Assembly: GCF_014855495.1 (NCBI RefSeq)
Contig: NZ_JACYFJ010000003.1
Location: forward strand, 62,001 to 126,000
Direction of reading: 5' to 3'
Origin: Euzebyella saccharophila
GTDB lineage: Bacteria; Bacteroidota; Bacteroidia; Flavobacteriales; Flavobacteriaceae
DNA length: 64,000 nucleotides
In this document: positions 16,242 through 56,471 of the stretch, one piece after another
Layout of the letters: each line of letters opens with the position of its first letter
Numbering within the stretch: position 1 is the first letter of the stretch
Translations under genes and position numbers: made by a program
Notes under the pieces: generated by a model
What the model was told of the DNA's origin: nothing
Seen by the model: the letters and a program-made list of their open reading frames with translations, nothing else
Databases searched by the model: none

Positions 16242-16256
16242 ATTTTTAATAATACT

Positions 16257-37486: not shown

Positions 37487-40400
37487 TTATAATTCGAGAA
37501 GCATTAAGCGGGCATTATTTCTAGCGATTAACAATGCCTCTTTCTTTTCACTTCCTAATGATATAAAAGCAGCACCACGCACATCGCCTCTCACATATAA
37601 TCCTGATTTTTGAGCGGCCAGAGTCTGGTATTTTCCATTGCCCATATTTTTCAAATAATGACCGTAACTGGCATCGTTTCGTGGCGTTTCTACCTCAGAA
37701 CCGTACATATTGCCAAGAAGTATAAGATCAGATTTCTGTCCCTCTTTTCTAGTTCTAGTAATAATTTTGTTTATTGATGATATTTGCACCGGGTTTGGTA
37801 AGGGCTTGAATTCAAATCCTTTATTTCCTGTATTTTCAAGAATGGAACTCGCAAAATTGGTGGCCGCCCTATGGATTGAATTGTCAAGGGCTTCACCAAA
37901 AACATCTTGCAAACTGGCCTTCCCAAATTCTTCGTAGGTCTTGAATTTTTTCTTGACGAAAGGCATTTGATTTGATGTGCATTCCCTTCCTCGCAATGGA
38001 TAAAGTGTGTTATCTTGCTCATAACCCAAGACGATATCGTTAGTATTATTGCCGTCAAAATCGTTTAAGTATAAATGGAAGGGCTCGTCTTGAGTGGCTT
38101 TGTATTTGTAGTTCAGGCCAAGGTTACCCGCAATAAGGTCGATGTCTCCATCATTATCAATATCATCTGCGGCAAGGCTATTCCACCAACCTACATTATC
38201 GTTCAAACTGAATTTTTCCGAAACACTTACAAACTTTCCGTTTTGCATTGAAAAGGCTTGTATATTTCCCCACTCTTGGGAAAGTATCAACTCTTCTCCG
38301 CCTTTGCCGTCCAAATCAACCCATAACACATCGGTTACCATCCCGAAATCCAACAATTCAGGAAGCAGTGAGGTAGTGACATCCTCAAATCGTATTTTTT
38401 CGGCTGTTGAAGTATTTTCCAATAAATAGCTTTTACCAGAATATCCGTAATTTCTCGGTTTCACCCGAGACCCGACAAAGAGGTCTAAATCTCCATCCTT
38501 ATCAAAATCCAGTGCGGTTATGGCTTGTCCACTGGTAACTATATCGGGAATTGCCTTAGAAACTCTAGTAAAATTGCCTTGTCCATCATTTTTATAAAAG
38601 CGGTCTTGGTAGTATGCACTTTCCGTTTTCATTTCATTACCCCCACTTACTACATACAAGTCTTGGTCACCGTCGCCATCGGCATCCAGAAATAAACTAC
38701 CCGTATCTTCATGTTGCCTATCACGGTTAAATGCGGGAACTGATATTTTCTTGAAACCTTCGTTAGTTGTTTGTAGAAAAAGGGCGGCAGCCTGACCCAT
38801 CGCCCCGCCGATATAGAAATCTTCAAGTCCGTCATTATTTACATCGCTTACTGAAAGACACGGGCCAAACTGTGACATCTTGTGAGGCAATAAAGATTCA
38901 AGGTCAAAATCGTTATAATCGTTTTCCTCATGTTTGAAATCGATTCCGTTGACCTCAGTGACATCCTTAAAATTGTAATTGTTTTCGTCATTTTCAATTT
39001 TTTTTGCACGGCTTGGATCATAGGCTATAGTTACTATGGTATTTGATTCCACATCGCTCAACATTTGATATTTCCCATCGGGCCATATCACTTTTATACT
39101 ATCAACTTTGCTATCACCCAGACCAAAATGTAGGGGTACGGCCATAGCAGATTGAAAGCCTCTTGTGAAGTAGTTTTCTGCCGTCAATGTGCTCTCGTCA
39201 ATAACCACTTCGATTCGTGCCCCAATACCATCAATATTCTTCGCAGGTCCCTTTAGATTTACTTGAAGAAAATTGTTGTTACTTTGGTTGTTTCGATAGA
39301 GGTGGACAAAGTCGTCCGTATTGTTTACTACGATGTCAAGATCGCCATCATTATCAAAATCAGCATAGGCGGCTCCATTGGAATATGTAGTAGGCTGTTT
39401 TAAATCAATCTTTCTGAAGCTTAAATCACCCTTATTCAGGTAGAGATAATTTTTTTTCCCTCTTTCAGGAAGTCTTTCCAGCAAATCATTAACATGTTTT
39501 GCCAAGTCTACCTTTTTCTTTCTTACACCTTCCTGATATTTCTTTTCCAAGTAAATGAGAAAATCGTTATTCCTAAAATCTCTTTTTATACCGTTGGATA
39601 CAAACAAATCTCGGTATCCATCATTATCCATATCGAACAATAAAGGCGCCCAGCTCCAATCGGTACTTGATATTCCGGCCATTTGGGCCACATCAGAAAA
39701 GGCGGGAATATCGGTTTTCGGAAAAGTTCCATTATTAACTTGTAGTGCATTGTACATATATTGTCGGTGAAGACCCAAATTCTCTATCATATAGAAATCG
39801 GCGACATTCATCCCGCTCATACTCGTTTTTTGTGTATAGTTGTCTTCTGCCATCATGTCTAGAGAAACCAAATCCATTAGCCCGTCATTATTAATATCGG
39901 CAATGTCGCTACCCATGGAAAAGGTGGACATGTGGTTAAATGACACCAATGAAGTCTCGGTAAACGTACCATCCTGATTATTGAGATAGAGATGGTCTTT
40001 TTGATAATAATCGTTACTAGTATACACATCAGGCCAACCATCATTATTGACATCTCCTATGGCTACTCCAAGGCCAAAACCCAAATTGTTACTTATTATA
40101 CCTGCTTTCTCAGTGACGTTTACAAATTGCCCATTATCGTTTCGATATAATTTCTCTCCGATTTTCGCGGACTGTCCTTTTCGGATTTCTTCAATGTCGT
40201 CGATTTCATAGATTTCGATGTTGTGATTAACAAGAAACATGTCCAAATCGCCATCGCGATCATAGTCGAAAAATGAGGCTTGGGTAGAATAATGCGGAAG
40301 ATCCAATCCAAAGTCTTGGGCACTTTCCTCGAAAATTGGAATATTATTTTCATCAGGCCCTTTATTTATTAGCAGTTCGTTCCGTAATGGTTCATCAGTT

Positions 40401-40849
40401 TCAAATCGGCCCGATTTTAGGATGTAGATATCTTTGAGACCATCGTTATTGATATCCACAACGGTCACGCCAGTTGGGAAACCTCCACTGCCTTGGGCAT
40501 TGGCCTTAACACTTACATTCTTAAATTTCAGGCCGCCTTTATTAAGGTATAGTTTGTTGGTTCGAAGGTTGCTGACGAAATAGATATCTTGTAGCCCGTC
40601 GTTGTTAAAATCAGCAACCGCAACCCCGCCACCATTATAGAAGTATTCATAGTAAAATCCGTTCATAGTGGTGGATTCTTCAAGCTTATTATTAAAGTTG
40701 AGGCCTGTCTCTTCCATACTCAACACGGTGAATAGAGGGCTTGTATCATTGACTTTCTCGACCTGTTCTTTTTCAGAGCATGAAAAGTTCAAAATAATTG
40801 ATACCACAATGAAAAATTTTAAGATTAATATAGTCCTATTTGAGTTCAT
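37487..40849 (-). CDS. Large VCBS/FG-GAP and ASPIC/UnbV lipoprotein (CRTAC1-like)
   Basis: A surface or periplasmic lipoprotein of 1120 aa (lipobox IILNFSC, Cys24). Many calcium-binding FG-GAP/VCBS repeats are visible, of the form VADFNNDGLQDIYFVSN, VVDINNDGLKDIYIL, DYDRDGDLDMFLVN, ADFDNDGDLDIVVNN and DFDKDGDLDLFVGS. They make two propeller-like blocks on either side of an ASPIC/UnbV domain (about 530-600, IDGIGARIEVV through DSIKVIWPDGK). I chose the start at 40849, not the longer 40891 frame, because it begins the lipoprotein signal and overlaps the CstA stop by ATGA. Such proteins are commonly encoded next to SusCD pairs in Bacteroidota; they may bind carbohydrate or protein. Exact role unknown. 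Confidence 0.92.
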   Translation of the reverse strand: MNSNRTILILKFFIVVSIILNFSCSEKEQVEKVNDTSPLFTVLSMEETGLNFNNKLEESTTMNGFYYEYFYNGGGVAVADFNNDGLQDIYFVSNLRTNKLYLNKGGLKFKNVSVKANAQGSGGFPTGVTVVDINNDGLKDIYILKSGRFETDEPLRNELLINKGPDENNIPIFEESAQDFGLDLPHYSTQASFFDYDRDGDLDMFLVNHNIEIYEIDDIEEIRKGQSAKIGEKLYRNDNGQFVNVTEKAGIISNNLGFGLGVAIGDVNNDGWPDVYTSNDYYQKDHLYLNNQDGTFTETSLVSFNHMSTFSMGSDIADINNDGLMDLVSLDMMAEDNYTQKTSMSGMNVADFYMIENLGLHRQYMYNALQVNNGTFPKTDIPAFSDVAQMAGISSTDWSWAPLLFDMDNDGYRDLFVSNGIKRDFRNNDFLIYLEKKYQEGVRKKKVDLAKHVNDLLERLPERGKKNYLYLNKGDLSFRKIDLKQPTTYSNGAAYADFDNDGDLDIVVNNTDDFVHLYRNNQSNNNFLQVNLKGPAKNIDGIGARIEVVIDESTLTAENYFTRGFQSAMAVPLHFGLGDSKVDSIKVIWPDGKYQMLSDVESNTIVTIAYDPSRAKKIENDENNYNFKDVTEVNGIDFKHEENDYNDFDLESLLPHKMSQFGPCLSVSDVNNDGLEDFYIGGAMGQAAALFLQTTNEGFKKISVPAFNRDRQHEDTGSLFLDADGDGDQDLYVVSGGNEMKTESAYYQDRFYKNDGQGNFTRVSKAIPDIVTSGQAITALDFDKDGDLDLFVGSRVKPRNYGYSGKSYLLENTSTAEKIRFEDVTTSLLPELLDFGMVTDVLWVDLDGKGGEELILSQEWGNIQAFSMQNGKFVSVSEKFSLNDNVGWWNSLAADDIDNDGDIDLIAGNLGLNYKYKATQDEPFHLYLNDFDGNNTNDIVLGYEQDNTLYPLRGRECTSNQMPFVKKKFKTYEEFGKASLQDVFGEALDNSIHRAATNFASSILENTGNKGFEFKPLPNPVQISSINKIITRTRKEGQKSDLILLGNMYGSEVETPRNDASYGHYLKNMGNGKYQTLAAQKSGLYVRGDVRGAAFISLGSEKKEALLIARNNARLMLLEL

Positions 40850-42303
40850 ATTTCTAAAATAACTTTTTTCTTTTGTGTGGAATGGTACCAAAAAAGGATA
40901 CTGATGCTTAAGGTAATCAAAGCCCCGCCGATGTATGATATATTGGTCGGCAATTGAAAGCCTTCAGGTGCAACAAGAATATAGGTGCAACAGACCATTG
41001 TCATGAACAGCGCCGGAATTAAGGTTATCCAGTATGCTTTGTTCTCATAAATTAAATAGGCGGTTATCGTCCAAAGTACAACAGTGGCCAAAGTCTGATT
41101 ACTCCATGCAAAATAGCGCCAAATGATTCCGAAATCGATTTGCGTGAGGGCAAAGGCAACTATAAATAGGGGTATGCTGATTACAAGTCGATTTCGTATT
41201 TTTTTCTGATCAAACTTAAAAACATCGGACAAGATTAAACGTGCCGAGCGGAAGGCGGTATCGCCGGAAGTTATCGGTGCGGCCACTATGCCCAACAAGG
41301 CGAGAATACCTCCTATTCCTCCCAACATGTTCAAGGAAATCTCGTTTGCTGCCCATGCAGCGTTGTTGTTATTGGCCAGCATTGCATCGTTCAAATCGGC
41401 CACATTGCCAAAAAAGGTCATTGCAGTAGCGGCCCAAATTAGGGCGACCACGCCTTCCGTAATCATGGTACCGAAGAATATTTTTCTTCCCAGGCGTTCA
41501 TTTTTCATACAACGCGCCATTAATGGTGACTGAGTCGCGTGAAATCCTGAAATGGCACCACAAGCAATGGTTACGAACAATATCGGAAACAAAGGCGTTG
41601 CTTCGGGATTTGTGGTCATATTGCGGATATTGGAAGGTAAAAGTTCAGGTATATGGTAGTCTCCAAAAAATAGGGCTATCAATAGGCCGATGGCCATTAG
41701 CAACATCGCTATTCCAAAAATAGGATACAACTTGCCAATGAGCTTGTCAATGGGGAGTAGTGTGGATAGAACATAATACACCAAAATAATTCCGACCCAA
41801 ACCCAGACGCCCCATACGTTTTCGGTCATACCATCGACAATCTTAGCCGGACCCATTAAAAACACGGTGCCTACAAAAATCAATAGCACAATGGTAAAGA
41901 ACCGCATCAATTGCTTCATGTTGTTCCCTAAATAGATACCTACAATTTCGCTGATGCTCAATCCGTCGTGGCGCACGGAAAGCATTCCAGAAAGGTAATC
42001 GTGTACCGCACCTGCAAAGATGCTCCCAAAGACTATCCATAAAAAAGCGGACGGCCCGAACATGGCACCCGCAATAGCACCGAAAATTGGACCTAGGCCT
42101 GCAATGTTTAAAAATTGGATAAGAAAAATCCGCCAAGTGGGCAAAGGCATGAAGTCGACATCATCCCTCAAACGTATCGCGGGAGTTTCCTTTTCGGGTT
42201 GTACTCCGAATATTTTCTCTATAAACTTGCCATAGACAAAATATCCTAAAATTAAAACAGCTATTGAAAATACGAATGAAATCATGTTCCCTTTTGAATT
42301 CAA
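40846..42303 (-). CDS. cstA: Carbon starvation protein CstA-family permease
   Basis: An inner-membrane permease of 485 aa with about 13-15 hydrophobic segments. CstA-family motifs include the N-terminal YGKFIEKIFGV, LNIAGLGPIFGAIAGAMFGP, HDYLSGMLSVRHDGLSISEIVG, CGAISGFHATQSPLMARC and ITSGDTAFRSARLIL. It is shorter than the 700-residue E. coli protein, as in many Bacteroidota. CstA proteins import peptides or pyruvate during starvation. In this operon, with only 2 bp to the upstream gene, it may take up a product made by the exported proteins of the locus (inference). Confidence 0.94.
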   Translation of the reverse strand: MNSKGNMISFVFSIAVLILGYFVYGKFIEKIFGVQPEKETPAIRLRDDVDFMPLPTWRIFLIQFLNIAGLGPIFGAIAGAMFGPSAFLWIVFGSIFAGAVHDYLSGMLSVRHDGLSISEIVGIYLGNNMKQLMRFFTIVLLIFVGTVFLMGPAKIVDGMTENVWGVWVWVGIILVYYVLSTLLPIDKLIGKLYPIFGIAMLLMAIGLLIALFFGDYHIPELLPSNIRNMTTNPEATPLFPILFVTIACGAISGFHATQSPLMARCMKNERLGRKIFFGTMITEGVVALIWAATAMTFFGNVADLNDAMLANNNNAAWAANEISLNMLGGIGGILALLGIVAAPITSGDTAFRSARLILSDVFKFDQKKIRNRLVISIPLFIVAFALTQIDFGIIWRYFAWSNQTLATVVLWTITAYLIYENKAYWITLIPALFMTMVCCTYILVAPEGFQLPTNISYIGGALITLSISILFWYHSTQKKKVILEI

Positions 42304-42305
42304 AT

Positions 42306-43766
42306 TTATTGATAGATAAAGTATGCCGTTACTTTAGCGGACATATTCGAGGTCAACCTTACCCAGTGAGCATTAAATCCTTCAGGGAATTCATGGTGGC
42401 CATATCCTTTTTCATCTACCTTAAACTCATCATAAATGCTCCAAGTACCATCCCCAACAAAATCTACCTCAATTTTAAAAGTTATTTCCTTTTCTTCTTC
42501 ATGCTTTAGGTGGAGCACCTTTTGGTCAAACCCGTACATAAGATACGGGTCGGATATCTCCCCGGCCTTAACCTGGGTTTCATACCAAGGGCCACCCATA
42601 CCAGTAGGCTTTCCAAATGACCAGAGGTCGTCTGTTTTTCCAAACCACAAATTTGCTTGAGGTTGACCCGCAAGCGGATTACGGTCCAAGGTATTGGAAA
42701 ATCTCATGGGCGTCGCCTGATTCCCCCCAAAAACCAACATGCCCCTCCACGAGCAAAAATCGGGCACCACCCTCAAATGCTTGGCAATTGGCCGTATTCC
42801 CCAAGGCATACTTGAATATGTATGATACGAAATTTCATAAAAAAGGCCGTGACAATCCATCATGGCCCGTTCCGTTTCCACCTCACGAATACGCATCCAT
42901 TCGGTACATGAGGTTTCATCGAAGGCATAACTCGATTTTGGTAGTCTGTACCTACTCCATTTATTATCTATCAAAACTTTCAGTATTGCTGAACTTCTAT
43001 CCCAGCCATTGGCCATCATAGGGCTTCCAAATGCCCTAGCACTCCAAACTTCGGTAAAAGGTTTAGTTTCCAGAATTGTCCACTTTCTTCCGTCCCATTC
43101 CGCTAACCGTCCTGCTTCCCATTCACGGTTAAAATCCTTTTTAGAATAACTGTTATTGGCTACAACTACTCTACCATGATTAGTGAATCCACTTTTAAAG
43201 TGAGGTTTGGCACCTTTGGGTTCATTAAGTTCTTTTTTTAGGTCGAAAAGATAATTCACTTTTAATGTGCGTAGGTCGACTTCAAGAAAATCTCCTTCCA
43301 TAGCCAGGAAATAAACTTTATTCTCAGGATCCTCCAGATGGTCCATGGTAGCGGCCAACCGATATCCTTTTATATCTTCAATCGTTCTCACGTTCCCCAA
43401 AGTATCTATCAGATGGGGGCCCATAATGAGCTGTTGGGTGGGAGCATGAATAAGCCTGTTCGCATAGGTTCCTACTACAGATTCCGGATGCTTTTTGAGA
43501 TTGAAGTCCTCATCGATTTCATATAATCCGGTACCCGAACCAGTACCTTCCATGTGGGCGACATATGTGATACACCAAAGGCGATTAGCCCAAGGCATCA
43601 AGGCTCCTGTTCCCGCCTCGGTTCTTGGGCTGTGATCTGCGACCATGGCAGTACTGGAAAATATACCACTTACGCTTTGTTTACTAGGATCGGTTAGCTT
43701 TTGGGCAGAACAACAGGGTATAATGATTATCAAAAATAGAATAAAATAATAATCCTTCATTGCCAT
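42306..43766 (-). CDS. Secreted protein of unknown function, paralogue of the 872-residue neighbour
   Basis: 486 aa with a Sec/lipoprotein-like signal (FLIIIIPCCSAQ). I recognise no named family. Sequence repeats of the form YFLAMEGDFLEVDLRTLKVNYLF and a pattern of short beta-strands suggest a beta-propeller followed by a C-terminal sandwich. Its whole length is similar to residues about 50-560 of the protein at 46709-49237 (NRLWCITYVAHM, YEIDEDFNL, LIMGPHLIDTLG, SNLWFGKTDDLWSFGKPTGM, DPYLMYGFDQKVLHLKH). Its final motif FPEGFNAHWVRLTSN reappears at the end of that protein. It is co-transcribed with that gene, an FAD oxidoreductase and SusCD, so it probably acts on, or binds, the ligand imported by this SusCD. 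Confidence 0.8.
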   Translation of the reverse strand: MAMKDYYFILFLIIIIPCCSAQKLTDPSKQSVSGIFSSTAMVADHSPRTEAGTGALMPWANRLWCITYVAHMEGTGSGTGLYEIDEDFNLKKHPESVVGTYANRLIHAPTQQLIMGPHLIDTLGNVRTIEDIKGYRLAATMDHLEDPENKVYFLAMEGDFLEVDLRTLKVNYLFDLKKELNEPKGAKPHFKSGFTNHGRVVVANNSYSKKDFNREWEAGRLAEWDGRKWTILETKPFTEVWSARAFGSPMMANGWDRSSAILKVLIDNKWSRYRLPKSSYAFDETSCTEWMRIREVETERAMMDCHGLFYEISYHTYSSMPWGIRPIAKHLRVVPDFCSWRGMLVFGGNQATPMRFSNTLDRNPLAGQPQANLWFGKTDDLWSFGKPTGMGGPWYETQVKAGEISDPYLMYGFDQKVLHLKHEEEKEITFKIEVDFVGDGTWSIYDEFKVDEKGYGHHEFPEGFNAHWVRLTSNMSAKVTAYFIYQ

Positions 43767-43778
43767 ATCTTATGTTAA

Positions 43779-44900
43779 TTAGAGTTTGTAATCCTTTAAG
43801 AAATCAGTTGCCAGGTAGGCATATGTTTCGCTCGGGGAATTAGCAAAGATTTCAATATTGGTCAAAATGCTCGGTTTTATTTGTTTCAATTCCGCCAAGT
43901 GCATCAAGTAAAGATTTAATTGATTTTTGGTCATAACACTTAATTCTTGGGAAAGATTTTCCAAGACGGATACCGGTGAATTTTTTAAATTATCGAGTAA
44001 GAGACTACGGCTATTGATGTCTACTTCGGAAAAATTATCCCAAAACGGTATTTGTAGCCTTTCAGAATTCCAGAACCGGTCAGGAAGATTCTTAACGATA
44101 AAAGTTCGTATCAAAGGAACGCCATCTTCGAATATTTGTGCGATACGAAGGTAGTTTGCCGCATACTGTTCTTCAGTCATTCTTTTCAGGGCGAACATTT
44201 GATAATCGGTATTGTTTGAACCTAGCATCCGTAATACCATATCGTTATCTACCAACGATAGTGTCCGTTTTTGAATCGCATCTTTGATCGGGCCATGAAC
44301 GAGATGCCATGCCGTATAGCAAGAATATAAAGCTCCACCGACGACTGATTCTTTTACTTCTTTAATTGTTGCCCCGGCCACCGCATCAACACCTTCCATT
44401 TCTGGTTGTTCAGGTTTTTTGACCAATTCATCAATTTTTCTGCGCTTTAATATGGAGTTGTCGTCCATTAGCAGTTGATGTAGTTTCCTGTAGTCTGCAG
44501 AAAGAAATTCGTCATGATCGTGCTTGGTCAACGGTGAATTTGGGTATCGATCAAACCCTGCGTATTCTCCCAAAAGTGTCCAATACAACCGGATGTCCAT
44601 TAAACGGCAATCGCCATCGGCACATACAGGTGTTGAAATATCAGAAGTATAAAGCACGGGGCGGTCTTTTAAATCGACCAGTACATTTATTTCTTGTGCA
44701 CCCATGGAATCGATTTCTATCGATAAATCGGTCGGTTTTGCTTTCAGCTGCATCCCTCCGTTCCACTCCAAACTATAGAATTCCGGCGGTAGATTCATAC
44801 TATTCTGGCCGAATCTATCGGAAAATGGTGTTTGTGGGCCGAATTGTGCAAACCCTATGGCGGCAAAAAAAATTAAAAGTATTCCGAGCTGGATTTTCAT
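43779..44900 (-). CDS. Secreted protein with FMN-binding-like motif, unknown function
   Basis: 373 aa with a Sec signal (about 1-18, ending GFAQ). Around residues 171-178 the sequence VDAVAGAT followed by IKEVKESVVGGALYS resembles the FMN-binding domain motif in which a Thr (here Thr178) is covalently flavinylated. The C-terminal 170 residues are helical and may form HEAT-like repeats. I am not certain of the family. The gene overlaps the FAD oxidoreductase gene by 4 bp, which would fit an electron-transfer partner (inference). Confidence 0.7.
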   Translation of the reverse strand: MKIQLGILLIFFAAIGFAQFGPQTPFSDRFGQNSMNLPPEFYSLEWNGGMQLKAKPTDLSIEIDSMGAQEINVLVDLKDRPVLYTSDISTPVCADGDCRLMDIRLYWTLLGEYAGFDRYPNSPLTKHDHDEFLSADYRKLHQLLMDDNSILKRRKIDELVKKPEQPEMEGVDAVAGATIKEVKESVVGGALYSCYTAWHLVHGPIKDAIQKRTLSLVDNDMVLRMLGSNNTDYQMFALKRMTEEQYAANYLRIAQIFEDGVPLIRTFIVKNLPDRFWNSERLQIPFWDNFSEVDINSRSLLLDNLKNSPVSVLENLSQELSVMTKNQLNLYLMHLAELKQIKPSILTNIEIFANSPSETYAYLATDFLKDYKL

Positions 44901-46687
44901 TGTTTGGATTTCGGTATCTTGATATATTTCTGTGATTCGATTAAATCCAAGTATTCTTTCAAGTAACCTGTATAGACTTGTCTAGGGTTGACATCATACT
45001 TTTTACAAAGTGAAGCCGCCAAGCCTACTGCCGCTCCCATTTGTCCGGTAGTACGCATTACCCTGGGGCCACCCAAGCCAACATGTGAGGTACTGAAGTT
45101 TCGTCCGGCCATAAAAAGGTTGTCTATATTTTTCGAATACAGGCTACGGTATGGTATATAATAACGAGGAGTCTTGTAGAAAAGCGCCTCGGAGATAAAA
45201 TCAGGGTTTTTTTCATCTTCTAGTACCGTCTGGTAATGGACATCGACCTCACGGGTCTCTTGAACCACCGCATCAGGGAATTTTGTCCCCGCTTTGGCAT
45301 CGTTAAACGTAAAAATATGGTCTCCGACCAATCTACGCGATTCCCTTTTACCCACTAGGTAAGAAACCCATTCCAATCTGCGGGTGGCATTTTCAGGATG
45401 TTCCTTGGCATTTGAGAAAGATCCGTAGATGGCCCTTAGCATATGGTCCCGTATTTCTTCGGCATCATCGATTTGGTTCAGGTCATTGCGGCTGAATTCC
45501 CATTGCCACTCTCCATTGACTTCTTCGTATGCTTTGGCAACCGGCATGGCCCACGGTACTTCAGGAAACTTTTGCTCGGTATCCATCACCTTGGACCCCC
45601 ACAGGACCGAAGAACCCATAACGGCATTGTCTTCTTCATTCGGACTCCATAATTCGCCCCATTCCTCCCATTCCTCGCCATAGGTATCTACACTTTCACG
45701 GCCATATGAAAAGTCAGCGCCAGCCCAAAAGCCTACCCAACCATCGCCAGTAGAATCTACAAAATAGGGCGCTTCAAACCGCTTTCTTTCACCAGAACTA
45801 GTATGCCTCGCATCTACATATTGTATGGTATTGTTTTCGGCGACGGCATCATAGGCACGCCAATTTAGATATAGATCAATATTTTCATAGCTTTTAACAT
45901 TGTCATCCCTTTTTTTCTGGTCCAATTTTGCCTCTGCCGATCCATTGGGGTAATGTTCAGTATCCAATTTTTTCAAGATACGTTCAAAATGTCCGTAGAT
46001 ACCAAGGGTATGTACACGTATCTCGGCACTGGCATTGCCACCCAACATTGGCCTGTCATGAATCAAGGCTACTTTCAATCCCTGTTCGGCCGCTGCGATC
46101 GACGCTGCACATCCGGCTATGCCCCCACCTACCACAACCAAATCATAGGCTTGGTGCTGCTTGGGCGCATTGGGCTCTTGCGCGATGGTCATGCGCCAGC
46201 TGGCCAGCTTTTTAGGGGACGAGGGAGGTTCCTCGTTTTTAGCAGAAAAATAAATCGCATCGCATCGCCCATTAAAACCGGTCAAATCAATCAATTCGAC
46301 TTTTTCGAACTTGGTACTGATTTCGGTCGCACCTACGTATTCCCAGCCCCAACCAGAGCGTTTTCCTAAGACTTTTTCAAAATCGGTATCGCCCACTTTC
46401 AATTGAAACCTACCCGGGGCTTCCCACTCACCAGGAACCCAGTTCATTGTACGAACCCAGATGTGGTAGGTACTCGTTTCGGGAAAATTAACAACAGTAG
46501 TGGCATTTTTAACTGGATTGCCCATACCATGTGCCATTAGATACGGGGATCCCATTTGTTGTACAAATTGGGGGTCGATGACCCAACCTCCAGGACTATC
46601 GAAACTCTCCGCTTCAATTAATAGATCTTGACCATAAAGGCCTAAGCTTATGAGATAAAAACAAAGGATTAACAGTATTGATTTCAT
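44897..46687 (-). CDS. Secreted FAD-dependent oxidoreductase (FAD_oxidored family) with N-terminal beta-sandwich
   Basis: 596 aa with a Sec signal (about 1-20). Residues about 20-150 form a carbohydrate-binding-module-like beta domain (LLIEAESFDSPGGWV, TYHIWVRTMNW, CDAIYFSA). The dinucleotide-binding Rossmann motif is G187-G-G-I-A-G192 (DLVVVGGGIAGCAASI), followed by NASAEIRVHTLGIYG and the C-terminal LFMAGRNFSTSHVGLGGPRVMRTTGQMGAAVG typical of the FAD_oxidored family. It is probably a periplasmic sugar or glycoside oxidoreductase. It overlaps the following gene by 4 bp. Confidence 0.9.
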   Translation of the reverse strand: MKSILLILCFYLISLGLYGQDLLIEAESFDSPGGWVIDPQFVQQMGSPYLMAHGMGNPVKNATTVVNFPETSTYHIWVRTMNWVPGEWEAPGRFQLKVGDTDFEKVLGKRSGWGWEYVGATEISTKFEKVELIDLTGFNGRCDAIYFSAKNEEPPSSPKKLASWRMTIAQEPNAPKQHQAYDLVVVGGGIAGCAASIAAAEQGLKVALIHDRPMLGGNASAEIRVHTLGIYGHFERILKKLDTEHYPNGSAEAKLDQKKRDDNVKSYENIDLYLNWRAYDAVAENNTIQYVDARHTSSGERKRFEAPYFVDSTGDGWVGFWAGADFSYGRESVDTYGEEWEEWGELWSPNEEDNAVMGSSVLWGSKVMDTEQKFPEVPWAMPVAKAYEEVNGEWQWEFSRNDLNQIDDAEEIRDHMLRAIYGSFSNAKEHPENATRRLEWVSYLVGKRESRRLVGDHIFTFNDAKAGTKFPDAVVQETREVDVHYQTVLEDEKNPDFISEALFYKTPRYYIPYRSLYSKNIDNLFMAGRNFSTSHVGLGGPRVMRTTGQMGAAVGLAASLCKKYDVNPRQVYTGYLKEYLDLIESQKYIKIPKSKQ

Positions 46688-46708
46688 ATTATATTCTTTA
46701 GTTGCGTT

Positions 46709-49237: not shown

Positions 49238-49296
49238 TCTAAATAGTTTTTTGATTTGGATATCCAACACATTTTGAACTCTTGAACTGAAGGAAA

Positions 49297-49318
49297 CCCC
49301 GAAAATAACTTCTCGGGG
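49297..49318 (-). terminator. Possible terminator or attenuator hairpin after SusD
   Basis: Read on the minus strand, ccccga pairs with tcgggg around a 10-base loop, followed by TTTCCTT. The stem is short (6 bp) and the T-run weak. It lies between the SusD stop and the start of the 842 aa lipoprotein gene, so it may lower expression of downstream genes relative to SusCD rather than end the transcript. Confidence 0.4.
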
Positions 49319-49344
49319 ATTTCTCAACCAACTAACTCAAAATC

Positions 49345-51120
49345 TTAATATCCTTCGTTTTGGGTAAGGTTCGGATTCAAAAGTCTTTCTTCTGCAGGAA
49401 TGGGCCAGAGATACTGACGTTCTGGAAAGCTTATAGTGTTCAGTGAACGACAAAGCCCAGCATTTAATAATGCCGAAAAGTCTGGAAGACCGTCTTCGTC
49501 AATCTCCGGAGTCATGCCCCAAAACCATAAGCCCGGGGTTACGACATTATCCATAAGTGGCCCGGTAGGTGCGACAGTAACGTCACCATCGGTTGCTACA
49601 TTAATCATACCCAAAAGACTTCCCGAAATTGCTTTGTCGGCCAAGCGCCATCGAATAATATCCATATACCTCCGGCCTTCGAACGCAAATTCTGATCGCC
49701 GTTCTTGGCGCACCTTCAGACGTAACGCAGCTTGATCGGTGGTGACTATAGCCGGATTTGGAACTGAGGAATTTGCATAGGCCCTATCCCTGACCTGATT
49801 CATGGCATCAAGTACACTTTGGTCGATTTGATTCAACTCTATTTTCGATTCGGCATACATCAATAAAACATCTGCATACCGTATAATTATCTTGTCAGGA
49901 TCCGTTCGATAATCTTTCCAATCTTCGGTAATGCCCTTTTTCCAAGCCAAACCATTGAAAGAGGCAAAGGTTGCCACCGAACGAGTGTCATTATTGGTAA
50001 TAAGACTATTGGTGCCAAAATCCATCACCTGTTTTTTCTCGGGATGGGGCGTGTACTCTATGTTCATAAAATTGGATCCGTCGGCGGGTGTCTTTTCATC
50101 ACCGTCTTCCAAAGAACCAAAGGGCACAATAGTCATGTTGCATCTAGGATCCCTATTCTTGAACGGGTTCTGGGGGTCGAACAGGGGAGATTCATCTATT
50201 GGAAGTCCGTCGGTACATTCAAATGAGGCCAAAAGTTCCCAAGTAGGTTGTCTCGCACCCCAACCACCATGGTTTCTTGGGAGGTAATCGCGAACGTTAT
50301 CGCCACGGGTAACATCTAAGGCATCACTACGCGGGATATGAAAAATGGTTTCCTGCGAGTTCTTGGTGGACGGGTCGAAAAGTTCAGCAAAATCAGGATG
50401 CAAGTCATACGTCCCCAAATCCATACAATCTTGCGCCGCTTCGGCCGCTACCGCATGATCGCCCATATACAAAGCAATTCGGGCTTTCATAGCATATGCG
50501 GCACCTTTGGTAGCATACTTTAGTCCATCACGTGTAGTCGGAAGATTTAAGGATGCGTTATCGTAATAGTCATAAATTTTTCGGAGGACTTCATTTTTAT
50601 CAGTACGCGGCAACTCGAAAGATTCGTCAACGGTCAACTCTTGCTCGTAAAAAGGAACATCACCATAATGGGAAATTAGGTACGACCAATATGAAGCCCG
50701 TAAGAAATTTGCTTCTGCCGTAAATAAACTTACCTCATCCTCCGACAAGATACCGCTCTGTTTATCAATCTGATCCAAAACTACCAGCATTCGGGTTATG
50801 GCCTTGTACATATTGGCCCAATTTGTACTTGCCGGACCGTATTCGGAAGAAACGGTGCCTGCCTTGATATCATCCAATCCGTCGCGACGCTGCCAATCGT
50901 CTGTCCAGCCACTTCCATTAGCACCGGATTCGCTGCCCGTATCTAAAGGCCAAAAGACTTCACGGTAGCCCTCGTTCAATGATTGCCTAAATTGATCATT
51001 CGTCTGGTACCAGGTTGCGGAACTTGCCGCGTCTTCTTGAACCAAGTCCAATTCAGTACAAGAGAAGGTCGTTAACACCAACCCTAGAAATAGCATACTA
51101 CTATATATTTTGTTTTGCAT
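49345..51120 (-). CDS. susD: SusD-like surface lipoprotein
   Basis: A SusD/RagB family lipoprotein of 591 aa from the ATG at 51120; a longer upstream frame to 51153 would overlap the SusC gene and lacks a signal. The lipobox is LVLTTFSC (Cys21). Family features are the helical segment LFTAEANFLRASYWSYLISHYGDVPFYE, the MNQVRDRAYA region and FEGRRYMDIIRWRLAD near the C-terminus. It pairs with the SusC gene that ends 10 bp upstream. Ligand unknown; no polysaccharide-degrading enzyme is encoded nearby. Confidence 0.95.
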   Translation of the reverse strand: MQNKIYSSMLFLGLVLTTFSCTELDLVQEDAASSATWYQTNDQFRQSLNEGYREVFWPLDTGSESGANGSGWTDDWQRRDGLDDIKAGTVSSEYGPASTNWANMYKAITRMLVVLDQIDKQSGILSEDEVSLFTAEANFLRASYWSYLISHYGDVPFYEQELTVDESFELPRTDKNEVLRKIYDYYDNASLNLPTTRDGLKYATKGAAYAMKARIALYMGDHAVAAEAAQDCMDLGTYDLHPDFAELFDPSTKNSQETIFHIPRSDALDVTRGDNVRDYLPRNHGGWGARQPTWELLASFECTDGLPIDESPLFDPQNPFKNRDPRCNMTIVPFGSLEDGDEKTPADGSNFMNIEYTPHPEKKQVMDFGTNSLITNNDTRSVATFASFNGLAWKKGITEDWKDYRTDPDKIIIRYADVLLMYAESKIELNQIDQSVLDAMNQVRDRAYANSSVPNPAIVTTDQAALRLKVRQERRSEFAFEGRRYMDIIRWRLADKAISGSLLGMINVATDGDVTVAPTGPLMDNVVTPGLWFWGMTPEIDEDGLPDFSALLNAGLCRSLNTISFPERQYLWPIPAEERLLNPNLTQNEGY

Positions 51121-51130
51121 GTTTTCTTTT

Positions 51131-54100
51131 TTAAAAGTTAGCTTTAACCCCAAGTAAAAAAGACTTGGTTATCAAATATCCGGTACCCTGTTCCGGGTCT
51201 ATACCCTCTATAAGGTTATCAAATGTGAAAAGGTCATTACCCGCCAAATATACCCTTAGCTTTGAAAAGCCAGTGTCCCCAAAAATATCTGAAGGTAAGG
51301 TGTAGCCAAACGTCAGGTTTTTGATTCTCAAATACGCCCCACTGGTCAACCAGAAATCAGAAAAAGCATAATTGTTTCCTGAAGCATTTTCGGTCAATCT
51401 TGGGTAGTTTGCATTCTGGTTCTGCTGTGAGGTGTTGTAGGTACTCCAATAACTATTGGCATATACCGTTGAAGGTGACAACCAACTCTCTAGATACGGG
51501 CGTATGAAACTTTGTGATATATAAAAATTCTGTTTTCCGACCCCCTGAAAGGTAAGGCCAAAATCAAATTTTTTATATTCGAGGTTAATATTGCCCCCAT
51601 ACTGGTATCTGGGCAATGAACCACCTAAAATTGTTCTATCCAACTCGTTAATTATACCATCGGGAACGCCGTCGGGCCCACTCAGGTCTTTGTATTTGAT
51701 ATCTCCGGGGCCTACAGCATCACTGGTGACGGCAGCCGCATCGACCTCAGCCTGCGTTTGGAAAATACCATCGGATTGATAGCCATACCAAGATTGGAAC
51801 TCACTACCTTCTTCTGAAAGTATTCGATCACCGTTAGCAAAAAGACGTTTCCCCCTGATATCGCCGATAATGGACTGTGAATCAAAAAAATTCACGGAAG
51901 TTGAGTATCTAAAATCGTCTATTTGATCTCTCCATGAAAGGGCAAATTCCCATCCATCGGTATCCATGTTTCCCACATTTACCGTGGGGTCGTCATAACC
52001 GCTCAAGGATGGTATACTTAAATCTAAAAGCATATCAACCGTCTCCTTTTTAAAGTAATCGGCAGTCAGCGATAAACGGCTATTGAACATATTCAAATCT
52101 ACACCCAGGTTCATGGATGTCGTTGTTTCCCAAGTTACATTTTCGATAGCCAGAAAGCGCTGTGCTGCCGCACGTGCGGCCTGCACGTCAGTCCCGTTAG
52201 CGATCAAGGCATTACTGAACTGTAAAACGGATAAATAGAGATAATTACCTAAACGGTCGTTGCCCAGACTACCATACGACGCCCTTAGCTTTAAAAACGA
52301 TATGACCGGGTCAAGACTTTCCATTAAACTTTCGTTAGAAACTACCCAACCTGCAGAAACCGATGGAAAGGTACCCCATCGATACTCTTGACCAAATCGT
52401 GAAGAACCATCCCGTCGAACTGTGGCTTGTAAATAATACTTGTTATCGAAGTTATAGGCCAACCTGCCAAAATAAGAAGAATACGCGTTCTCTGAAAAAC
52501 TAGTCTCACTGTCGAAAACTTTGTCGATCGGTGCCTGATTCAGAAAGGGGAAATCGTTGCTTACAAATTCATTTCCACGAACCCCTAGGGTCTCAAATTT
52601 AGCCTGAAATTCTTCGTAGCCGACTACTGCACTTATATTATGACCGCCATATGATTGGTCATAATTTATAAGAGCCTGGGTAGTAAGAGTATTATCATTG
52701 GTTCGCCGTTCTACGAGATTTGTTTCGCTAATATTGTGCCCAGATATATAATTAGGTTCGGCTAACTGATTTGGGTCGTTCGCTGCCCAATACGGTACTG
52801 ATCTATTAAATCTTTTGTATTTGTTGAATTCAAAATTAGGCGCTACGTTCAGTGAAATTTTAAGCGTTTTCACTGGTTTATAATAAATACTCGCCATACC
52901 GTAAAATAAGTAGGTGTCGCTGTTCTGAAAGCCTCCTTCTTGTAAACGGGCGTATGCATTATCGCCCGATTTACTTTCTGCAATCCTCCCATTTTCCCAT
53001 AGGGCTGCATAAACCGGTCCTGACTGTATTGCCCTAGCGGTAGGGTCGAGTACCGGTTGGTCATCTTTGGTCACTTTTAGGGAAAAATCTACATTACCCC
53101 CAAATTTTTCGGAGATTTTTATATCGTTGTTAACCCTTACGTTATAGCGTTTCCAATCACGGTGATCGTATAAGGCATCTTGATATTCATAGCCCAAATT
53201 GACATTAGTCTTTACTTTTTCGGAACCTCCACTCAAGGTGATGCTATGACGATATCCTGAAGAAGATTTTCTTAGGATGAGGTCGCGCCAATTTGTGTCG
53301 GGAAACTGATCAGGGTTTTCGGCATTTAATGTCGAATAATTTGTAACCAAGTCTTCAGACCATATGGGAAATTGATTGTCATCGTTTCCGTTATCATTCC
53401 ATGACTTTTCATTGTCCATCTGCATATAGCGAACGGCACTTACCGTGCCTCGAAGTTCGGTAGGCGTATTAATCATATACTCCCCGCTATACCCTAGACT
53501 AAATACTCCAGTCTTGGCCCTTTTGGTGGTGATAATCACTACTCCGGCAGCCGCTCTTGATCCATAAATGGAGGCAGCAGCACCATCTTTAAGGACCGAA
53601 ATACTCTCGACTTGATCCGGATTGACATCATCGATGCTGCCTACGGGTACGTTATCAACCAAGATTAAAGGCGAGCTGGCGCCCTGAAGTGTCGTTACAC
53701 CTCTAATACGGATATCGTTGCTAGATCCCGGCGCAGAACTACTTCTATTGATGCTTACCCCAGCTACGGAACCTTGGAGTGCGTTCGACACATTGGTCGT
53801 ACTGCGTGAGGCTATTTCATCTCCGTTGACCACACTCACCGAACCGGTCAAGTCCTTCTTAGATTGCGTACCATACCCCACTACAATTACTTCGTCAAGC
53901 CCTGCAGCACTTTCTTCTAGAACAATCGAAATACTATTCTGATTGTTGACCGGAATATCCTTTGTACCGAAACCAATATAAGAAACTGTAAGTGTGGCTT
54001 TTCCGTCTGATAAAGACAGGGTATAATTTCCGTCAAAATCGGACTGGGTACCATTTGTTGTTCCCTTTTCTAAAACACTAGCACCCGGCAAGGGAACTCC

Positions 54101-54547
54101 CTGATTATCGGTTACTGTTCCGGAAACTGTAAAATCTTGTGGAAGAATACGTACTAATGGGTCCGCCTGTATCCTTAACTCTCGCTTCTTTATGACCACC
54201 TGACGATCATCGATACTATAGTCTAAATCTGTGTTTCGAAATACAAGGTCGAGTATAGTTGCTAGTTCTGCTTTCTTTAGCTGTAGGTACACTCTTCTTT
54301 TTGTATTCAGCACGTCGTCTTTATAAAAAAAGATGAAATCACTTTTACCTTGGATCTGATTAAATAGCTCTTCATAGGTGATGCCGTTGGCGTCTATACT
54401 TATTTTGACCTGAGCATACGAAGGATTCGCGTATACAGCACCAAGACCGATACCAATAAACAAAAGAAAAACTCTCATAAGGATTAAGCTGGCAATCTTT
54501 AAGGTCATTTTACCCTGAATATGGGTAAGACCGACAATTTTATTCAT
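51131..54547 (-). CDS. susC: SusC-like TonB-dependent transporter with STN domain
   Basis: A full-length transporter of 1138 aa. A long basic leader precedes the signal (about 15-45, ending SYAQ). It is followed by an STN domain (about 48-118, ISIDANGITYEELFNQIQGKS) and a carboxypeptidase-regulatory-like domain (about 140-225, PLPGASVLEKGTTNGTQSDF). The TonB box region is DEVIVVGYGTQSKKDLTG. A plug domain (SIYGSRAAAGVVIITT) and barrel end in FLLGVKANF. The STN domain couples it to the FecR/ECF pair encoded just upstream. The STN and linker region is very similar in style to the partial receptor at 1-2465. Confidence 0.96.
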   Translation of the reverse strand: MNKIVGLTHIQGKMTLKIASLILMRVFLLFIGIGLGAVYANPSYAQVKISIDANGITYEELFNQIQGKSDFIFFYKDDVLNTKRRVYLQLKKAELATILDLVFRNTDLDYSIDDRQVVIKKRELRIQADPLVRILPQDFTVSGTVTDNQGVPLPGASVLEKGTTNGTQSDFDGNYTLSLSDGKATLTVSYIGFGTKDIPVNNQNSISIVLEESAAGLDEVIVVGYGTQSKKDLTGSVSVVNGDEIASRSTTNVSNALQGSVAGVSINRSSSAPGSSNDIRIRGVTTLQGASSPLILVDNVPVGSIDDVNPDQVESISVLKDGAAASIYGSRAAAGVVIITTKRAKTGVFSLGYSGEYMINTPTELRGTVSAVRYMQMDNEKSWNDNGNDDNQFPIWSEDLVTNYSTLNAENPDQFPDTNWRDLILRKSSSGYRHSITLSGGSEKVKTNVNLGYEYQDALYDHRDWKRYNVRVNNDIKISEKFGGNVDFSLKVTKDDQPVLDPTARAIQSGPVYAALWENGRIAESKSGDNAYARLQEGGFQNSDTYLFYGMASIYYKPVKTLKISLNVAPNFEFNKYKRFNRSVPYWAANDPNQLAEPNYISGHNISETNLVERRTNDNTLTTQALINYDQSYGGHNISAVVGYEEFQAKFETLGVRGNEFVSNDFPFLNQAPIDKVFDSETSFSENAYSSYFGRLAYNFDNKYYLQATVRRDGSSRFGQEYRWGTFPSVSAGWVVSNESLMESLDPVISFLKLRASYGSLGNDRLGNYLYLSVLQFSNALIANGTDVQAARAAAQRFLAIENVTWETTTSMNLGVDLNMFNSRLSLTADYFKKETVDMLLDLSIPSLSGYDDPTVNVGNMDTDGWEFALSWRDQIDDFRYSTSVNFFDSQSIIGDIRGKRLFANGDRILSEEGSEFQSWYGYQSDGIFQTQAEVDAAAVTSDAVGPGDIKYKDLSGPDGVPDGIINELDRTILGGSLPRYQYGGNINLEYKKFDFGLTFQGVGKQNFYISQSFIRPYLESWLSPSTVYANSYWSTYNTSQQNQNANYPRLTENASGNNYAFSDFWLTSGAYLRIKNLTFGYTLPSDIFGDTGFSKLRVYLAGNDLFTFDNLIEGIDPEQGTGYLITKSFLLGVKANF

Positions 54548-54599
54548 AATTTTGTGATTAGGTTAGTTAATGTTGCCTTTTGGCAACGTTGCTATTTTG

Positions 54600-54627
54600 G
54601 CCAGAGGATGTTGCATCATCTTCTGGC
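54600..54627. terminator. Strong hairpin between fecR and susC
   Basis: gccagaggatg and catcttctggc form an 11-bp stem (one mismatch) around ttgcat. On the + strand it is followed by six T residues, giving a terminator on that strand. On the minus strand, in which fecR and susC are transcribed, the T-run is missing. There it may act as a processing or stability element in the susC leader. A smaller hairpin (ttgccttttggcaa) lies just beside it at 54572-54585. Confidence 0.5.
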
Positions 54628-54672
54628 TTTTTTATTTCGATTGTTTATTGATACGCCATATAGTAATTCAGT

Positions 54673-55734
54673 TTAGTTAGTAGTTATCGTAATCTTTCGT
54701 ATTTCTGTTCGATTATATTTCAAATCGGTTGTTTTTTTGATAGTTTCAATTACTTCTTCAACATCATCCTTTAAATCTAAATAACCGGAAAAGGTTTCAT
54801 TGGCTAACTTCTCACTATCAATCGTAATGTCAATATTATAATAGCGAGACAACCTTCGCATTATGGTTTTCAAATTGTCATTTTTAAAGATTAATACTCC
54901 TTCTCTCCATGAAAAATATCGCTCTACATCAACCTTTTTCGATGATATAGAATTGGTTTTCTTGTTATAACCGGCGTAGCTTCCTGGTTCGATTTTAAAG
55001 TTTTCAGTATAAGTTTCAGACGCATTCCTGGCATAACTAATTTGTACACTACCGCTTTTTAGCACAGTAAATGCCAATCCTTCGTCGGCGTAATTATTTA
55101 CATTGAAAACCGTCCCCAGCACTTCTATCTTTTGATTTTCAGAGTTTACGATAAAAGGTCGGTTTTCGTTGTGAGCAACCTCGAAAATTGCTTCTCCCTC
55201 AATATAGACCTCTCGTTTTTCTTTCGTGAAAACTGCAGGGTAAACAAATCTTGACCCCGAATTGATCCAAACCGTACTGCCATCCGACAACTGAATTATT
55301 GAACGCTTACCATAAGGAACCACCAGCGTATTGTATACCACAATATCCTTATCTACGCTTACCTGAGTCAAAGATCTCGAGTTACCGATATTTACTTTTT
55401 TACCGGAATTAGAGTAGGTTATTGTCGGGTTATCTTCATCTAGATTTACATTTTCTCCCATGTTGAGCATGAGGGTTACCTTATCCAAGTTTTTATTTTC
55501 TAGACTCTTGGACGATTTAACAAAATCCTTTATCGAAGCTTCCTTCTTTTGATTAAAAAATAGGCCTGAAGCCAATAGAATGGCAATTGATGCCGCAATT
55601 GATATGGCATTCCTTAATTTTATCTTTTTCTCTTTATGATTTTCAACAGAAGATAAAATTCTAGCTTTCAGTTTCTTTTTTTCAGCTACTGAAATCGATT
55701 TGATATCTATGTCTTCTGGGTTATGATTTTTCAT
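54673..55734 (-). CDS. FecR-family anti-sigma factor
   Basis: An inner-membrane regulator of 353 aa. The cytoplasmic N-terminus (1-41) is followed by a membrane segment (42-60) and a periplasmic FecR domain (about 137-240, LVVPYGKRSIIQLSDGSTVWINSGS). The C-terminal domain (about 280-350, LKTIMRRLSRYYNIDITI) is the family type that senses the receptor STN domain. It is followed 125 bp downstream by the cognate susC and preceded by the sigma gene, the usual order in Bacteroidota. Confidence 0.94.
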   Translation of the reverse strand: MKNHNPEDIDIKSISVAEKKKLKARILSSVENHKEKKIKLRNAISIAASIAILLASGLFFNQKKEASIKDFVKSSKSLENKNLDKVTLMLNMGENVNLDEDNPTITYSNSGKKVNIGNSRSLTQVSVDKDIVVYNTLVVPYGKRSIIQLSDGSTVWINSGSRFVYPAVFTKEKREVYIEGEAIFEVAHNENRPFIVNSENQKIEVLGTVFNVNNYADEGLAFTVLKSGSVQISYARNASETYTENFKIEPGSYAGYNKKTNSISSKKVDVERYFSWREGVLIFKNDNLKTIMRRLSRYYNIDITIDSEKLANETFSGYLDLKDDVEEVIETIKKTTDLKYNRTEIRKITITTN

Positions 55735-55853
55735 AAATTATCTCAAGGCCTTCAAAATTACTTCTATAAATGTGATTATAACGCACAGGCTATTAGGCCC
55801 TCTATACATATTAAGGAGCTATTCTAATGTTTATAGACAAAAAAAATCGTCTT

Positions 55854-56471
55854 TTATGAAAAAAAAGAAGGATAAAGTAAAAGGTATAATAGAAATGGCT
55901 GTCTTCGAAGAATCTTCAGCGCTCTATATATAGTGGTTCTTGCAGTTGGAATAGAGGTTTTCATGATATCGGCAATTTCTTCATAAGTTTTATCTTGAGT
56001 AAAACGAAGAAACAGACCCTTTTTCTGTTTATTTGTTAACGTTTCAAGGGCGATTTTTAATTTTGAATTTATCTCATCAACCGTTTCGGACCTGATAATA
56101 TCATCTTCAAACGATGCAACGTGATTTTTTTGCAAATCGTACATCTTCAATTGATTTTCCGCTTGTACGGGGATAATTTTTCTCGTATACTTCTTATTGA
56201 TTTTTCGCCTTAAAGATCGGAACAAATATGATTTAACGTTATCTGTCTCTGCTAATTTGGATTTGTACTTATACAGGTCAAAAAAGAGATCATGAATACA
56301 GTCCATAACGAATGCCCTATCCTTAGAATATTGTATTCCAAATGAAAATAGTTCATCAATATAAAGTTCATACAAACAGCCCAAGGCGGAACTGCTACCT
56401 TTCTTAAGCTCGTCCCAGAGTAGTAAATCATCCTTTGAGAGGTATAATTTTTTAGACTTGATGGCTTGCAT
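55854..56471 (-). CDS. ECF-type RNA polymerase sigma factor
   Basis: 205 aa ECF sigma factor. Region 2 lies at about 20-95 (ALGCLYELYIDELFSFGIQYSKDRAFVMDCIHDLFFDLY) and region 4 at about 135-190 (LTNKQKKGLFLRFTQDKTYEEIADIM then TSIPTARTTIYRALKIL). It heads the sigma-FecR-SusC-SusD operon and would be freed by FecR on ligand binding, giving positive feedback on the locus. Confidence 0.94.
   Translation of the reverse strand: MQAIKSKKLYLSKDDLLLWDELKKGSSSALGCLYELYIDELFSFGIQYSKDRAFVMDCIHDLFFDLYKYKSKLAETDNVKSYLFRSLRRKINKKYTRKIIPVQAENQLKMYDLQKNHVASFEDDIIRSETVDEINSKLKIALETLTNKQKKGLFLRFTQDKTYEEIADIMKTSIPTARTTIYRALKILRRQPFLLYLLLYPSFFS

Follow-up and report, generated by a model that had tools for sequence, protein, structure and literature searches.

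An unclassified propeller protein family beside a putative flavin redox pair in a SusCD operon of Euzebyella saccharophila

What does a SusCD operon act with, and upon, when the place of its main enzyme is held by proteins that the profile libraries do not recognise? This question is raised by a minus-strand operon of Euzebyella saccharophila (genome of 4.46 Mb in 18 contigs) located at positions 37487-56471 of the window, i.e., the whole 64,000-nucleotide stretch analysed in this study (contig NZ_JACYFJ010000003.1, positions 62,001 to 126,000). The operon reads sigma, FecR, SusC, SusD, LWFG842, FADox, FMNl, LWFG486, CstA and VCBS, with intergenic spacing from overlaps of a few bases up to 125 bases; LWFG842 and LWFG486 denote the 842- and 486-residue members of a family termed LWFG, FADox a flavin adenine dinucleotide (FAD)-dependent oxidoreductase, and FMNl a protein first described as flavin mononucleotide (FMN)-binding-like. 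The genes, order, strand and tight spacing agree with the initial annotation, except that its operon "continues with" ten genes, whereas ten is the total with the sigma factor counted. Its statement that no known carbohydrate-active enzyme signature is present also held, as no glycoside hydrolase (GH) or lyase model of Pfam-A or NCBIfam matched the eight operon proteins from SusC to VCBS (sigma and FecR were outside the scan). Although SusC and SusD are adjacent, as in a SusCD polysaccharide utilization locus, the operon is therefore named a SusCD nutrient-uptake operon and not a proven polysaccharide locus. The best explanation of the whole is a SusCD operon in which LWFG proteins would be the catabolic enzymes, FADox and FMNl a redox pair and CstA the uptake system, a combination judged slightly more apt to fail somewhere than to hold throughout.

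LWFG is a widespread family without a model in Pfam or NCBIfam. LWFG842 and LWFG486 are related as initially proposed (36% identity over 507 columns, 5e-99), and searches of Pfam, NCBIfam and PDB sequences gave nothing above chance level for either; an assignment of both to a known hydrolase or lyase family, named beforehand as a possible refutation, was not returned by Pfam or NCBIfam. A PDB sequence search with a profile of 72 members reached a best E-value of 0.6, i.e., chance level, and scanning 36 members against Pfam and NCBIfam gave no consistently matched family, the commonest weak match being PLipase_C_C (5/36, best E 0.0045), besides CBM_35_2 (best E 0.00023) and F5_F8_type_C (best E 0.00026) in 2/36 members each. 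When species genomes were scanned, at least 517 of 591 pattern-matching stretches encoded LWFG relatives, the best 80 of which span the Bacteroidota, Verrucomicrobiota, Planctomycetota, Armatimonadota, Acidobacteriota, Bacillota, Sumerlaeota, Kiritimatiellota and Lentisphaerota groups; LWFG486 alone found no relative in the species-genome contigs, whereas the alignment-based scan did. The suggestion of a new enzyme family thus stands insofar as an unclassified family occupies the place of the main enzyme, with the correction that this family is widespread.

Across an even sample of the phylum the distribution is sporadic, with full-length relatives in 4 of 394 genomes (the window's own excluded) and one weak partial match obtained only in the single-protein search (G331, E 2.6e-4). 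Three of these relatives (L021, L022 and L023) directly follow SusC-SusD, and the fourth (L024) lies upstream of SusC-SusD on the same strand. Additionally, one of two congener genomes carries LWFG, and the plasmid collection contains a single record with a relative, from Spirosoma oryzicola.

The extra internal copy of the C-terminal half reported for the larger protein is a real repeat: a second alignment links LWFG486 to LWFG842 (33% over 300 columns, 4e-44), and LWFG842 also aligns with itself (30% over 232 columns, 6.7e-24). The repeat is not special to LWFG842, having been found in 72/72 long forms (E < 1e-3), and its absence from the short form appears to be a loss. On this point the initial annotation had the direction reversed, the long form being the commoner one. 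These 72 long forms comprise the window protein and 71 of 79 long-form references, the alignment leaving out L029, L048, L049, L056, L082, L094, L071:10133 and L100:12967. Four short forms were found: LWFG486 and those of L083, L097 and L169. The 100 residues of LWFG486 that precede the LWFG motif are closer to copy 1 in 64/72 comparisons, and the part from the motif to the end is closer to copy 1 in only 2/72; the short forms of L083 and L097 show the same pattern, weaker ahead of the motif (48/72 each) and with 1/72 and 4/72 after it, and L169, which has no LWF motif, is outside this comparison. LWFG486 aligns to positions 8-381 and 692-806 of the 806-position family profile and retains only the end of the C-terminal third, from the LWFG motif onward. 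Because a copy-1-like part precedes the motif and a copy-2-like part follows it, the short form corresponds to a long form minus the stretch between the repeats, and LWFG486 is most simply read as a deletion hybrid derived from the long form.

Structure prediction with a fold search, as proposed in the initial annotation, placed a seven-bladed propeller in LWFG842 and singled out no function. The AlphaFold2 model, built from 72 sequences, has a mean predicted local distance difference test score (pLDDT) of 91.9 and a predicted template modelling score (pTM) of 0.92; residues 48-423 match seven-bladed propellers, and the comparison rests on this part, as residues beyond 426 are barely covered. 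Virginiamycin B lyase 2z2n (Z 15.0, root-mean-square deviation 3.9, 268 aligned residues) is tied with human and yeast WD40-type chains, a generic result that tells against a catalytic reading of the match; since WD40-type proteins score equal to the lyase, the fold indicates a propeller, not a function. A viral-structure search likewise returned generic propeller-like matches, with template modelling (TM) scores up to 0.38.

Seven-bladed propeller lyases and hydrolases include polysaccharide lyase (PL) families PL22, PL24, PL25 and PL42 as well as GH145, and the His, Tyr and Arg of the propeller lyases resemble invariant His, Tyr and Arg residues of LWFG; no entry so named was among the fold matches listed, which excludes nothing. 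As far as the available portions of the gum-arabic and ulvan lyase papers go, known seven-bladed propeller polysaccharide lyases leave room for LWFG to be an already described carbohydrate-active enzyme family that has neither a Pfam or NCBIfam model nor a solved structure. This is improbable given the chance-level PDB search and the inconsistent matches of the 36 scanned members, and word-based (not sequence-based) literature searches listed no paper whose title or opening abstract lines describe or name the LWFG family, nor one that so describes FMNl.

Whether LWFG is an enzyme was approached through the residues that its forms share, the initial annotation having suggested conserved acidic or histidine residues as possible parts of a common active site. 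All 72 long and all 4 short forms agree at 22 polar or aromatic positions, with invariant His, Glu, Asp and Arg among them: E72, Y90, H93, S117, R125, H128, Q133, R158, H165, E179, E184, H204, K206, W303, D304, T338, E339, W340, R342, H356, D386 and W390. Two relatives, from a Bacillota (L066) and an Armatimonadota (L059) metagenome-assembled genome, have no hydrophobic leader after any ATG, GTG or TTG start; an in-frame upstream hydrophobic stretch exists in L066 and holds no such start. Only these two clearly lack an export signal, that of L067 (Bacillota) and L081 being not clear-cut. The L066 gene is flanked by genes for an AraC-type regulator and for a LysE-type translocator, and the neighbours in L067 are two esterase-like genes and an aldo/keto reductase. 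Since a cytosolic version would be senseless for a surface glycan-binding protein, the leaderless relatives, together with the invariant residues, favour an enzyme. Additionally, LWFG is the sole gene besides regulators, SusCD and a transporter in some operons, the transporter being CstA in Zhouia (L031) and a major facilitator superfamily (MFS) protein in L055 and L057.

Two observations weigh against an enzyme. The polar or aromatic propeller residues R164, Q212, N219, W299, S414 and N415 are invariant in long forms and altered in at least one short form, and the divergence of LWFG is roughly equal to that of SusC and SusD from the same loci, the identities of LWFG, SusC and SusD being 68, 55 and 59% in L021, 39, 40 and 37% in L022, 38, 42 and 45% in L023, and 37, 33 and 30% in L024. 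Divergence rates do not decide between an enzyme and a binding protein. The latter alternative is that LWFG is a surface glycan-binding protein of SusE/SusF type, or a docking scaffold with a propeller body, and that the cutting enzymes are encoded elsewhere. Surface glycan-binding proteins are usually encoded just after SusD, and the probable lipoprotein LWFG842 directly follows SusD, as do LWFG genes at 20/36 Bacteroidota loci. The two repeated sandwich-like parts could moreover serve as binding modules, an option in line with the weak matches to a phospholipase C C-terminal domain and a CBM35 model given above, and one surface glycan-binding protein, 7kwb_B, appears in the Foldseek list (rank 50, TM-scores of only 0.09 and 0.16). 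LWFG matched no SusE/SusF-type profile in Pfam or NCBIfam, although these proteins are diverse and models do not exist for all of them. A binding role is nevertheless rather unlikely, considering that 49 of 85 LWFG loci lie outside the Bacteroidota (split by hand) and contain no SusC or SusD, that 22 positions are invariant, that two relatives are leaderless and that the operon holds a second, shorter copy. LWFG is thus, with moderate confidence and on sequence grounds, a putative enzyme. If so, a family found in at least 517 stretches and without a Pfam or NCBIfam model would mean that sugar-degradation predictions for many bacteria skip a step.

The identification of FADox and CstA in the initial annotation was borne out, with Pfam scores far above the curated cut-offs of 27 bits (221.3 bits for PF12831 in FADox; 198.9 bits for PF02554 in CstA). 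The first ~180 residues of FADox (EAESF..GGW near the start) have no Pfam match and a similar start in relatives; this region is perhaps a carbohydrate-binding domain. For the "FMN-binding-like" protein, the name found no Pfam support, and a conserved flavinylation-type motif was found. FMNl carries the motif D-x3-G-[AS]-T in 18/18 relatives (GST in one of the first 16) and an invariant C-x4-C pair, although the first eight sequences fall to 24% identity. The FMNl profile located it in 8 of 395 phylum genomes (the window's own included), at nine places, and a FADox homologue stands beside it in 8/8 of those outside the window; the L122 homologue is a weak match (24% over 288 residues), and FADox and FMNl of L123 are separated by ApbE. 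Overall, FADox adjoins FMNl in 17/18 cases, L103 being the exception, and L167 and L170, chosen for FADox and CstA, are not independent among these. ApbE genes beside the pair (L120 and L123) were used as BLAST queries and revealed no further ApbE in the stretches searched, namely the window, L116-L123 and all 85 LWFG loci (L166-L170 lay outside); the host genome has three apbE genes.

ApbE substrates bear [S/T]GA[S/T]-like motifs according to the available portions of PMC8238504 and PMC11334425. In the FMNl of the window the motif is AGAT, Ala replacing the S/T residue, and the FMN_bind proteins L135 (own genome) and L134 (a relative) likewise have AGAT. FMNl is therefore a candidate ApbE flavinylation substrate, as predicted from its sequence. 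The alternative, that FMNl is unflavinylated and the D-x3-G-A-T stretch an ordinary loop, is rather unlikely. It agrees with the Ala in the motif and with the Pfam scans, which assigned no family to FMNl of the window (E up to 1) or of L027 (E up to 0.01) and left it short of the PF04205 cut-off; when the host genome was searched with PF04205, C16 was the only gene listed, FMNl being absent. It also agrees with the structural comparisons, which weigh against flavinylation: the FMNl model (pLDDT 82.5 from 8 sequences, motif loop below 50) gave helical repeats and no flavin protein among the matches listed. Among PDB sequences, the FMNl profile met only chance-like matches. An hhalign comparison of FMNl with FMN_bind gave a probability of 58.9% and E 9.4e-5 (reversed control 0.52) over 35 columns that bypass the motif, and E-values with the FMN_bind profile, whose set excluded L150, were 1.1e-5 (L117) and 0.002 (window FMNl), among only 16 sequences. 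Against an ordinary loop stand the motif's retention in all relatives despite their divergence, the adjoining ApbE genes of L120 and L123, and the AGAT shared with the plus-strand FMN_bind matches L134 and L135.

FADox and FMNl quite probably form a putative redox pair, which may be the more novel part of the operon. If true, a flavinylated carrier tied to SusCD operons would join glycan use to extracytosolic electron transfer, a link not mentioned in the available portions of PMC8238504 and PMC11334425. In stretch L116, which holds no LWFG, a DUF7133 protein with a cytochrome c domain is encoded two genes from FADox (15491-17752, minus strand), a possible further electron carrier.

The neighbour survey proposed in the initial annotation showed recurrent FADox and CstA beside LWFG. 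Comparing 36 Bacteroidota with 49 other loci, the counts were 29 vs 0 for SusC, 29 vs 0 for SusD, 9 vs 4 for FADox, 6 vs 0 for FMNl, 5 vs 0 for CstA and 3 vs 1 for VCBS. These are lower bounds, as crude open reading frame picking found the LWFG gene in 83/85 loci and contig ends truncate many loci; the Pfam neighbour scan covered 69 of the 99 remaining operon neighbours. From the background of FADox in relatives of the window's order (14 match rows in 21 genomes, ~69 Mb), roughly estimated, well under one would be expected in 36 loci of at most 22.6 kb each (31.4 kb for the plasmid locus). Kriegella (L027) and Euzebyella marina (L029) share the gene order SusC-SusD-LWFG-FADox-FMNl-CstA-VCBS with the window, and Snuella (L037) departs from it by a single GH29-cluster gene inserted between SusD and LWFG; in another genus (L169), the short form and CstA are neighbours.

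A functional tie of these genes to LWFG has to be weighed against several results. FADox is missing from 27/36 and CstA from 31/36 Bacteroidota LWFG loci, some of them contig-cut. On the LWFG tree (77 rows, L029 absent; FADox label set by hand on 10 rows, the weaker 28-34% matches of L042, L072 and L098 left unlabelled), the FADox label requires 9 changes vs a shuffled mean of 9.6, with 180/500 shuffles as low, and appears in both deep halves without clustering. The pair seems to join or leave LWFG often, or the association is loose. A second CstA copy, 72% identical, lies in another operon of the host genome, so CstA is not specific to LWFG. That operon (L166, 2332-17822) reads FecR-SusC-SusD-sulfatase-FAD_oxidored-CstA with a divergent sigma gene and also encodes a thioesterase/lipase-like protein and a GMC oxidoreductase; no LWFG was present in the stretch read, and CstA thus recurs with a PF12831 protein. 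Accordingly, FADox, FMNl and CstA could be a separate module placed beside LWFG through operon assembly, with no shared substrate, and the three do occur together without LWFG in L116/L168 and L118. This too has only a small chance of being correct, in view of the frequency of FADox at Bacteroidota LWFG loci despite its rarity in relatives and of the gene order preserved in L027 and L029, to which L037 adds a single GH29 gene.

The ligand would be acidic or sulfated, perhaps deoxy-sugar-containing, which is the weakest part of the account. The sulfatase cluster was counted in 21/85 LWFG loci (8 Bacteroidota) and GH29 in 6/85, as raw counts; GH2, GH31, GH43, GH92, GH95, GH127 and NamZ also occur near various LWFG loci, most cluster names resting on one scanned representative. 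In Runella, a NamZ-type exo-muramidase gene follows LWFG (L078 by scan, L074 by clustering). Fucose as a ligand component is suggested by the GH29 cluster, by FucP with a rhamnulokinase-like gene in L036 and by a fuconolactonase-like gene with FucP in L117; no fucose-related gene is in the window's operon, and the host genome's three fucosidase matches lie on another contig. The Verrucomicrobiota and Planctomycetota neighbours are too varied to point to one substrate. A sialidase-like reading of LWFG (invariant arginines, tyrosine and acids) and a pyruvate-ketal reading (CstA and sulfatases) are left as ideas.

Transporters directly beside LWFG include CstA (L031, and beside the short form in L169), a sodium:solute symporter (L092, with a homologue in L046) and an MFS protein (L055, with a homologue in L057) weakly like aromatic-acid and sialate symporters, far below the cut-offs. 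The plausibility of small-acid uptake derives solely from the presence, next to some LWFG genes, of CstA and of an MFS protein weakly like organic-acid symporters, and an acid as the putative product imported by CstA is possible but somewhat doubtful.

Combined, these results outline how the operon may work. A sigma/anti-sigma-controlled SusCD operon would serve an acidic glycan or glycoside, probably sulfated or deoxy-sugar-containing, which SusC and SusD, families known for ligand passage through the outer membrane, would carry across that membrane. LWFG842 and LWFG486 would be the catabolic enzymes, with the invariant His, Glu, Asp, Arg and Tyr of the predicted propeller as a putative active site. 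FADox, apparently exported as judged by eye and assigned by Pfam as a flavoprotein, would oxidise or reduce the ligand or its product and exchange electrons with FMNl, which may carry covalent FMN attached by ApbE at D-x3-G-A-T. In the weakest step, CstA would take up a small product, the likeliest candidates being organic and sugar acids. A bolder version, a long shot, is that LWFG founds a novel class of propeller enzymes for extracytosolic glycan cleavage, which would either follow flavin-driven oxidation or accompany it: FADox would alter a hydroxyl, the electrons would leave via flavinylated FMNl to the respiratory chain, LWFG would cleave the activated bond and CstA would import the acidic fragment.

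The features of the operon are collected in Table 1. Substrate-induced control through FecR and a sigma factor is typical of STN-bearing SusC systems, with which the STN domain of the window's SusC fits. Elsewhere in the window, a second SusD gene match lies at 15255-16160 (plus strand), and upstream of the operon a 1496-amino-acid gene (57436-61926, minus strand) has a match to the PADLOC defence model TmtA (3.3e-290, residues 16-1489).

Table 1. Genes and sub-gene features of the SusCD operon, in window coordinates and in order of transcription.
Feature	Position	Strand	Basis and remarks
Sigma factor, first gene	55854..56471	-	Open reading frame (ORF); extracytoplasmic function (ECF) type per initial annotation; homologues precede LWFG operons elsewhere
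FecR-type anti-sigma factor	54673..55734	-	ORF; homologues at 17/36 Bacteroidota LWFG loci
SusC-type TonB-dependent transporter	51131..54547	-	TIGR04056 1.2e-274; N-terminal STN domain, PF07660 7.3e-09
SusD-type lipoprotein	49345..51120	-	PF07980 1.2e-45
LWFG842, long form of the unclassified propeller family	46709..49237	-	Probable lipoprotein (N-terminal LSAC box, by eye)
LWFG842 predicted seven-bladed propeller, residues 48-423	47969..49096	-	Holds the long/short-invariant residues; coordinates by hand
LWFG842 C-terminal third, residues 540-842	46709..47620	-	Second repeat copy; coordinates by hand
FADox, FAD-dependent oxidoreductase	44897..46687	-	PF12831 3.6e-65, residues 182-578; leader peptide (by eye)
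FMNl, 373 amino acids	43779..44900	-	Predicted ApbE flavinylation substrate; leader peptide (by eye); C-terminal alpha-helical repeats
FMNl flavinylation-type motif DAVAGAT, residues 172-178	44367..44387	-	Coordinates by hand
LWFG486, short form of the propeller family	42306..43766	-	
CstA-family inner-membrane transporter	40846..42303	-	PF02554 2e-58
VCBS, FG-GAP/UnbV_ASPIC protein	37487..40849	-	PF13517 3.6e-67; PF07593 6.1e-19; probable lipoprotein (by eye)

The operon and several of its proteins can be compared with known systems. LWFG842 shares a predicted propeller with the seven-bladed propeller lyases and hydrolases, but no sequence relation to them emerged from the PDB searches, and LWFG842 adds a repeated C-terminal third. 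The operon's CstA matches PF02554 as the CstA pyruvate/peptide transporters do, and scores far below the cut-off of the E. coli-type pyruvate symporter model (89.3 bits vs 1188 needed). Compared with ApbE-flavinylated FMN_bind proteins as described in the available portions of PMC8238504 and PMC11334425, FMNl has a similar [S/T/A]GAT-like motif, a leader peptide (by eye) and an adjoining flavoprotein oxidoreductase, in two loci also ApbE, whereas it lacks a PF04205 match and bears a C-x4-C pair and a C-terminal alpha-helical repeat. Finally, the operon is like the SusCD polysaccharide utilization loci of Bacteroidota in having sigma/FecR, SusC, SusD, exported proteins and an inner-membrane transporter, and differs from them in that the enzyme place is held by the unclassified LWFG proteins beside a predicted flavin redox pair.

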